From the NCBI GenBank assembly GCA_949130485.1, contig OX422184.1:20042824-20106823 (forward strand): 64,000 bases of DNA, in the 5' to 3' direction. Origin of the DNA: Agelas oroides (taxonomy: Eukaryota > Porifera > Demospongiae > Agelasida > Agelasidae). Below are positions 1,001 through 63,949 of this stretch, piece after piece. The notes under the pieces were generated by a model that was not told the origin of the DNA, did no database searches, and was given only the letters and a program-made list of their open reading frames with translations. Numbering within the stretch: position 1 is the stretch's first letter; every line of letters starts with the position of its first letter. A program made the position numbers and the translations under genes.

Positions 1001-1162
1001 CTTGGCAGCGGACACCAGCATCCTCATAGGGGACAGTACAGTTATAAGGACGTGTGTATCTACAGTCAATTAGTCGTCTCTCTGATCCAGAGCAGGAAAC
1101 GTTGTCAAAGTGGACAGGACCACTGCCTTGTCCAAAGAAGGACAAGGAAAAGGCCACAGCAC
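1001..1162 (-). CDS. SRCR11 C-half exon
   Basis: 162 bases, phase 1-1: [40 protein letters not shown], donor GTATGT. It is the last exon visible; the donor shows that the transcript continues below base 1. Confidence 0.9.

Positions 1163-63949: not shown

Follow-up and report, generated by a model that had tools for sequence, protein, structure and literature searches.

The window analysed here, a stretch of 64,000 nucleotides (C2:20042824-20106823 of the 259-Mb, 141-contig assembly that was searched as the genome), is probably the middle of one gene of ~103 kb, designated gene A. Taken together, the evidence makes it likely that gene A is a giant mosaic receptor gene, located in a tandem row whose members have exchanged cassettes via phase-1 introns. 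The ectodomain would be built of phase 1-1 module exons, namely two-exon SRCR, sushi and FN3 modules, with fibrinogen-like modules added in the neighbouring genes B and C. Whole multi-exon cassettes would have passed between neighbours, in either direction, by non-allelic recombination inside phase-1 introns, and recombination at such sites has the consequence that junctions keep the reading frame. Sponge proteins with SRCR, sushi and FN3 domains are already known; block exchange between neighbouring genes is the new part.

Phase-1 exon shuffling is the textbook origin of animal mosaic proteins and is mostly deduced from very old events. Here, what appears to be a recent block exchange among three neighbours keeps the phase rule and has one junction resolved to a few bases, in what is apparently an early-branching animal. 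The origin of new receptor architectures and the identity of the sponge receptors for self or microbe recognition are now testable.

Exons of the window and of gene A

The exons lie on the minus strand and span positions 63949-1001, in exact agreement with an earlier note on this DNA. The content described in that note, 11 SRCR and four sushi domains on one strand, was confirmed using profiles built from the window, a pattern search and Pfam-A. The profiles detected 11 SRCR N-halves and 11 C-halves, with E values no worse than 3e-28 and 1.1e-25, respectively; the best matches after these had E values of 0.52 or worse, and the pattern search of the window found four sushi exons. Pfam-A assigned 11/11 N-halves and 11/11 C-halves to the SRCR superfamily (PF00530) at E <= 0.01 and 4/4 sushi exons to Sushi; the first member of each half set exceeded the Pfam curated cut-off despite being a half domain. 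The domain matches are far beyond chance. Strict alternation of N-halves and C-halves, also claimed previously, was seen with these profiles on the minus strand for all 22 SRCR half-exons.

In the order of the minus strand, SRCR1, the whole gene's 4th SRCR, is encoded by an N-half exon (63788..63949, 162 nt, phase 1-1) and a C-half exon (63516..63680, 165 nt), both identified by profile, borders and Pfam. The sushi exons S1 (60902..61078, the whole gene's 2nd sushi), S2 (58705..58881), S3 (55500..55676) and S4 (54805..54981) follow, each of 177 nt and each identified by pattern, borders and Pfam. SRCR2 (N-half 46052..46213, 162 nt; C-half 40297..40470, 174 nt) opens the block of 19 SRCR common to gene B, and is succeeded by SRCR3 (39947..40111, 165 nt; 39520..39696, 177 nt), SRCR4 (39157..39318, 162 nt; 38391..38552, 162 nt, with a weak donor), SRCR5 (36597..36758, 162 nt; 35742..35912, 171 nt, the acceptor of which may be 6 nt further in), SRCR6 (34796..34957, 162 nt; 32299..32484, 186 nt), SRCR7 (31889..32047, 159 nt; 31552..31713, 162 nt) and SRCR8 (30942..31100, 159 nt; 29717..29884, 168 nt, the acceptor of which may be 3 nt further in). 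In SRCR9, the N-half (28646..28807, 162 nt) is separated from the C-half (10523..10687, 165 nt) by an intradomain intron of 17,958 nt. The last two domains in the window are SRCR10 (8908..9069, 162 nt; 1760..1942, 183 nt) and SRCR11 (1277..1435, 159 nt; 1001..1162, 162 nt), after which gene A continues past the window edge. An AlphaFold model of one N-half, with a mean pLDDT of 75, contains three strands and one helix.

As stated in the earlier note, each of these exons (26/26) has AG/GT borders, a length that is a multiple of 3 and phase-1 introns on both sides, the symmetry expected of a class 1-1 mosaic; the intron within the SRCR domain is also of phase 1. Phase-1 borders round extracellular modules are the usual rule. 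When the open-frame upstream AG closest to the domain core was taken as the acceptor, phase 1 was obtained for 26/26 exons; for the C-halves of SRCR5 and SRCR8 an AG located 6 or 3 nt further out was used, which is likewise in phase 1. Donors in phase 1 were listed for 25/26 exons, that of the SRCR4 C-half falling below the score cut. These 26 agreements are not 26 independent events, as three exon types were multiplied by duplication. The exons, ranging from 159 to 186 nt, join into 1452 residues with 0 stops. In a codon-bias search, no phase 1-1 exon outside the 26 scored above 11.5, compared with 13.5-29.8 for the real exons, the latter scores being in-sample. Neither tRNA genes nor Rfam families at the gathering score were found in the window.

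The introns contain several repeated elements. A Ty3/gypsy-like LTR retroelement (40712-44808, plus strand) lies antisense in the intron that splits SRCR2 and comprises gag, protease, RT and integrase pieces with interrupted frames between 138-bp direct repeats that are 98.6% identical. The 18-kb intron of SRCR9 includes 800-bp inverted repeats (15857-16654 and 18671-19469, 94% identical), adjoined by an open frame of 260 residues on the minus strand (19458-20237) with a weak zinc-finger match. Two smaller inverted-repeat pairs in introns, 9189-9502 with 9721-10034 (96.5%) and 21692-21828 with 22374-22510 (97.8%), are perhaps foldback-type elements.

Extension on both sides, as proposed in the earlier note, found a probable signal-peptide exon and a transmembrane (TM) exon, both beyond the window. 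The domain order given previously, SRCR1, four sushi and SRCR2-11, therefore holds as the content of the window but is cut at both edges, three SRCR and one sushi being located upstream, and nine SRCR, FN3 and the TM exon downstream. In window coordinates and on the minus strand, the upstream SRCR are at 64742-64237, 70692-70264 and about 71511-70979, and the sushi is at 67656-67480; the nine downstream SRCR extend from -1076 to -20700. A signal-exon search identified a signal-type first exon, MNPLCVSVWLLLLTAVVAH, with a strong donor (74613-74556, minus strand); it was the sole good first exon, and, as one weaker match was also obtained on the control strand, the signal peptide is only probable. 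The FN3 assignment rests on Pfam matches to fn3 for 8/10 downstream pieces of gene A, and a profile built from seven gene A FN3 exons returned those seven whole and three partial matches in A. The TM exon, near -28.8 kb, ends either at a stop after ~10 tail residues or at a donor-like GTGAGT.

Gene A thus consists of a probable signal peptide, 2 SRCR, sushi, 2 SRCR, 4 sushi, 19 SRCR, at least 7 FN3 and the TM exon, in total 23 SRCR, 5 sushi and at least 7 FN3 domains. A signal peptide together with a TM segment would make the product a type I surface receptor. An automatic rule applied to the 51 SRCR/sushi exons of gene A gave phase 1 for 46 acceptors and 48 donors, and for both borders in 43/51, all 43 having lengths that are multiples of three; among the other eight, the rule sometimes took an exon-internal AG or found no site. 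The signal exon and the 43 exons join into 2410 residues with no stop. The four SRCR preceding the four-sushi block are 86-93% identical mutually, unlike the other nineteen, indicating that the front is the youngest part of gene A.

Elsewhere in the genome, at least 183 SRCR matches were obtained from the 150 scored out of 3183 candidates. This abundance of SRCR, the Group C-like cysteines and the similar exon layout in sponge-associated contigs point to a sponge-type animal genome. Dense arrays of near-alike sushi exons were noted at G000:C2:5539828-5555389 and on other contigs; all 150 scored sushi candidates (the best 150 of 910) matched.

Neighbouring genes and the mosaic of blocks

Genes A, B and C form a tandem row on the same strand, with B upstream and C downstream of A. 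Gene B has 19 SRCR, FN3 and a TM exon identical to that of gene A. The 19 SRCR that follow the last sushi of A correspond one to one and in order to the 19 of B, with 73-98% identity, and the 12.7 kb compared below -20.7 kb show 93.7% identity between the two genes. For the 19 SRCR domains of A and B, dS is 0.0945 and dN/dS is 0.415, the latter indicating that the coding frame is under constraint by purifying selection. The window domain least conserved relative to B is SRCR11 (73% identity, dN/dS 0.89); for SRCR3 a dN/dS of 1.43 was obtained, from six differences in total.

A genome search with the TM exon gave seven matches, each of them on C2 at 18.47-20.14 Mb. In gene C, 5 sushi and a related TM exon (76%) are accompanied by FN3 matches, of which 27 are near-whole and 3 partial; within the stretch read, no SRCR was detected at E <= 0.001. 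In the parts read, fibrinogen-like exons occur among the sushi exons at the gene starts, three in B and two in C, and one of those in C was confirmed as Fibrinogen_C; as judged by strand, order and phase, these exons would belong to B and C. A further TM relative, gene D (18.606-18.636 Mb), shows, over the 30 kb read, eight SRCR followed by FN3, then a single SRCR and further FN3, with one of the FN3 matches on the opposite strand.

Different blocks of the window match different neighbours. The sushi cassette (54633..62239, minus strand), comprising S1-S4 and most of their introns, is colinear with gene C in eight aligned pieces at 84-96% identity, whereas in gene B its only matches are to the sushi exons (about 77%) and to a few pieces that look like repeats. 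From 51428 down, many pieces of A run colinear with B, except for its largest introns, which have no B match; C is matched there mostly by FN3/TM exons, at 72-86%, and by one or two further short stretches. The switch from C-colinear to B-colinear sequence falls at 51428..54633, within the phase-1 intron between S4 and SRCR2, and the other edge of the cassette, at 62239, lies in the phase-1 intron between SRCR1 and S1 (61079..63515). As neither neighbour is matched in order from 54.6 to 51.4 kb, where two pieces that match C out of order resemble dispersed repeats, the S4-SRCR2 edge is placed only to ~3 kb. The exon shuffling proposed in the earlier note is thus directly supported, as these blocks match different neighbours and switch inside phase-1 introns. 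Synonymous divergence of the sushi exons, computed for six of nine planned pairs, is 0.00, 0.30 and 0.18 for A-C and 0.71, 0.85 and 0.61 for A-B; the A-B values contrast with the dS of 0.0945 for the SRCR block of the same two genes.

Gene C is itself a chimera of B and A with a base-sharp junction. Over 9.6 kb, ending at -63703, the front of C and the front of B share 97.7% identity; a second B copy is matched up to -63792, and the A-like part of C starts at -63789. In a three-way alignment, C tracks B before the junction and then A, and the only letters that all three share at the join are AAAT; hence, almost no homology was involved in at least one cassette join. The junction sits between a fibrinogen exon and a sushi exon of C. 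These comparisons support the conclusion that the block exchange between neighbours is recent, although misassembly of similar tandem repeats could give the same picture. Copies of a 1-kb direct repeat (52650-53664 and 56362-57378, 95.7% identical) flank S3-S4 and could drive changes in sushi number by gain or loss of exons. The same dispersed repeat is also seen at 3141-3625 and at about 37.5-38.1 kb.

Plain tandem duplication followed by differential loss, such that C lost the SRCR and B the four sushi with no exchange of cassettes, would fit the same-strand arrangement of A, B and C and the flanking sequence common to the gaps that separate them. This explanation is unlikely, as the ages of the blocks conflict (sushi dS of 0.00-0.30 for A-C versus 0.61-0.85 for A-B, and 0.09 for the A-B SRCR block), the TM exon of A is 100% identical in B but 76% in C, and C passes from B-like to A-like sequence within a few bases. 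Another explanation is that the window holds two or more separate genes, with a boundary in the 8.6-kb gap 54805-46213, where a short SRCR/sushi gene would end and an SRCR/FN3/TM gene would begin. No other gap between window domains is as long, and the homology switch falls inside this one. Nevertheless, a division there is improbable. In a scan of the gaps between window domains for TM-type last exons and signal-type first exons, no TM-type last exon was found, and the only signal-type first exon was a doubtful one at 61145, which overlaps S1; the control, opposite strand gave the same counts, 0 and 1. Transcripts ending or starting inside the window had been named in the earlier note as evidence against a single gene. 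No other phase 1-1 exon with a coding score is present in the S4-SRCR2 gap, the S4-SRCR2 join leaves the frame open, and in gene B sushi exons likewise precede the 19-SRCR block. As an N-half exon and its C-half need each other, any division of the array between genes would have to fall at a domain border. Membership of the exons in one gene is further supported by the open joined frame and by the retention of the 19-SRCR order in gene B, and gene A is read here as what would be one transcript. The earlier note further held that any exon could be skipped or duplicated without loss of frame, from which it derived that a large diversity of isoforms is possible. The frame is indeed kept, since all window exons are 1-1, and whole-domain skipping would leave it intact; however, the join of the SRCR5 C-half to the SRCR8 C-half creates a TGA, a stop was present in 63/200 random orders of the 43 gene A exons, and skipping one half-exon would leave half an SRCR. 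It is doubtful, to much the same degree as a division into separate genes, that the symmetric exons serve extensive alternative splicing, given that module shuffling alone predicts identical exon symmetry.

Cysteines and repeat period of the SRCR domains

Eight cysteines were counted in 40/42 SRCR domains of A and B. The two exceptions, A19 (the 19th SRCR of gene A, at about -9.86 to -16.6 kb) and B15, are partners with six cysteines each, both lacking C2 and C7, which pair with one another in the Group B pattern according to the available text of PMC3100851. This A19/B15 pair offers a natural check of disulfide pairing. A leading Cys just before the domain and the Cys of a VExC motif co-occur in 42/42 N-halves of A and B. 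Among 95 intronless SRCR in loci filed as bacterial, both extra cysteines were found in 7 (five loci, four MAGs), a single one in 6 and 3, and neither in 79; these counts gave a Fisher p of 1.5e-5, for domains that are not independent. The pattern suggests that the extra pair probably forms a fourth, intradomain disulfide in each SRCR, which provides a concrete alternative to the published idea of a Group C cysteine linking molecules together. The intronless SRCR occur in bacterial-MAG contigs (L003-L067 except L006, L015 and L041) of Gammaproteobacteria, Myxococcota, Chloroflexi, Dadabacteria and others, and the loci in which the leading Cys and the Cys of VExC occur as they do in animal SRCR are L003, L005, L009, L031 and L051.

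In the sections of PMC3100851 that were accessible, Group A is defined by six cysteines and two exons per domain, and Group B by eight cysteines and usually one exon per SRCR. The domains of A and B have the two exons of Group A but, in 40/42, eight cysteines rather than six; they differ from Group B in having two exons and in the position of the extra pair. The 11 N-halves of the window have no Cys just before GRVE or after QLG, the Group B positions (C1, C4) having been taken from CD163 alignments. For the seven conserved cysteines of Group C, the six shared ones together with that of VExC would agree in number in 40/42 domains; the other two domains lack C2 and C7.

The motif GR[VL]E[VIL]C....W is present in 42/42 SRCR of A and B and also belongs to the general SRCR consensus; its DMBT1 counterpart, GRVEVLYRGSW, is reported as a bacteria-binding peptide (PMC3100851, section 9.1, in the part available). 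After C2, the first acidic residue is D in 38/42 domains (2 differ and 2 were unscored), and DD occurs in 28/42. As far as the accessible portion of PMC7043408 shows, ligand binding by DMBT1 requires the two Asp of its cation sites; the positions here were equated with those of DMBT1 through alignment by eye. Multivalent, cation-dependent binding would be the most likely mode of action.

Along the array, SRCR domains are most like those four and eight places away. For the joined DNA of the window, the p value for period 4 was 0.0009, or 0.0015 when corrected over periods 2-5, in a test run on the data that had suggested the pattern. For the array of 19 SRCR in A, z was 5.79, with 0/5000 shuffles as high over periods 2-7; mean similarities were 0.590, 0.598 and 0.612 at lags 4, 8 and 12, compared with 0.52-0.56 at all remaining lags through 11. 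The array of gene B gave z 5.81 (p 0.0002); as B is a colinear copy, this result is not independent. Period 4 was not significant for the nine downstream SRCR alone (p 0.55). The lengths of inter-domain introns fit the period (p 0.028, with four periods tried and uncorrected), but those of intra-domain introns do not (p 0.14 and 0.22). In a tree of the domains, the labels were clustered (1/200 shuffles as low), with no branch fully supported. A unit of four SRCR, or eight exons, was likely duplicated before the split of A and B. Co-inheritance of the N and C halves of a domain was considered and rejected, the Mantel test being negative (r 0.107, p 0.28); each C-half against the following N-half gave r 0.005 (p 0.48).

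Predicted function and comparison with known systems

The product of gene A is probably a receptor that recognizes microbes or self through multivalent, cation-dependent binding. By homology, its 23 SRCR would act together as the binder of microbial or self ligands, and cassette exchange would renew the specificity. It is quite possible, however, that the product is mainly a cell-adhesion or aggregation molecule rather than a microbe receptor, since FN3, and likewise sushi, are frequent in adhesion proteins and gene A has the layout of an aggregation receptor, with an ectodomain of SRCR and sushi (SCR) domains (23 and 5) and a TM exon. The aggregation receptor of the sponge Geodia cydonium is, in the excerpts of PMC4557014 available, a membrane protein of SRCR and SCR domains. 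A sponge SRCR gene also responds to microbial signals (PMC6208332, as far as its accessible text goes), and the present observations fit either role. Gene A carries 23 SRCR, 5 sushi and at least 7 FN3. The Geodia receptor (Blumbach et al. 1998) reportedly has 14 SRCR and 6 SCR.

In Amphimedon, the SRCR assigned to Group C (PMC10855680, Peng et al. 2024, seen in part) resemble those of gene A in forming tandem clusters with several SRCR per gene and in having an extra conserved Cys beyond the six of Group A. According to the same portion of that source, the linked sponge genes mostly have three exons per SRCR, as opposed to two in gene A, and in structural models the extra Cys of Group C lies outside internal disulfides, whereas here it is always accompanied by an eighth Cys just upstream. 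SRCR domains combined with Sushi, FN3 or EGF are described from Aplysina, Dysidea, Halichondria and Stylissa (the last with FN3), the combinations coming from transcriptomes and the FN3 ones being found in genomes; in the available parts of these accounts (PMC6208332, PMC8242945, PMC4772301), neither gene structure nor a cassette mosaic is described. No published account of block exchange between neighbouring SRCR genes was found in a search that covered few subscription papers.

Long SRCR arrays are also a feature of mammalian DMBT1/SALSA and CD163. These proteins are not known to have a layout of sushi, FN3 and TM. They differ further in belonging to Group B, with usually one exon per SRCR and another cysteine pattern, as given in the source passages available. 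In the Alr complex of Hydractinia, clustered receptor genes swap exons with their neighbours, but the domains are different. The likeness of Alr to the A-B-C locus is one of mechanism only, with a single genome on the present side. A bolder proposal is that the locus is actively exchanging cassettes, with fibrinogen-sushi, four-sushi, 19-SRCR and FN3 blocks being swapped by way of breaks in phase-1 introns, such that individuals differ in their mosaic receptors for recognizing self or microbes. This seems rather unlikely; if true, the locus would be a sponge counterpart of the cnidarian and tunicate recognition loci.

Relatives in viral contigs were sought and none was confirmed. The same intron-split SRCR, with N and C exons alternating almost throughout, was found in five sponge-associated loci (L001, L002, L006, L015 and L041), with two N-halves in L001 and L002 lacking a called C-half. 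Called donors in these loci were in phase 1 for 37/39 N-halves (51 in all) and 40/42 C-halves (46 in all); acceptors assigned by the nearest-AG rule were much noisier, with phase 1 in 28/44 called N-halves and 31/46 C-halves. L001 and L002 overlap on one contig, such that some exons were counted twice. The five loci are filed under a MAG of a Cycloclasticus symbiont from a Poecilosclerida sponge and, at 43-44% GC, resemble host sponge DNA.
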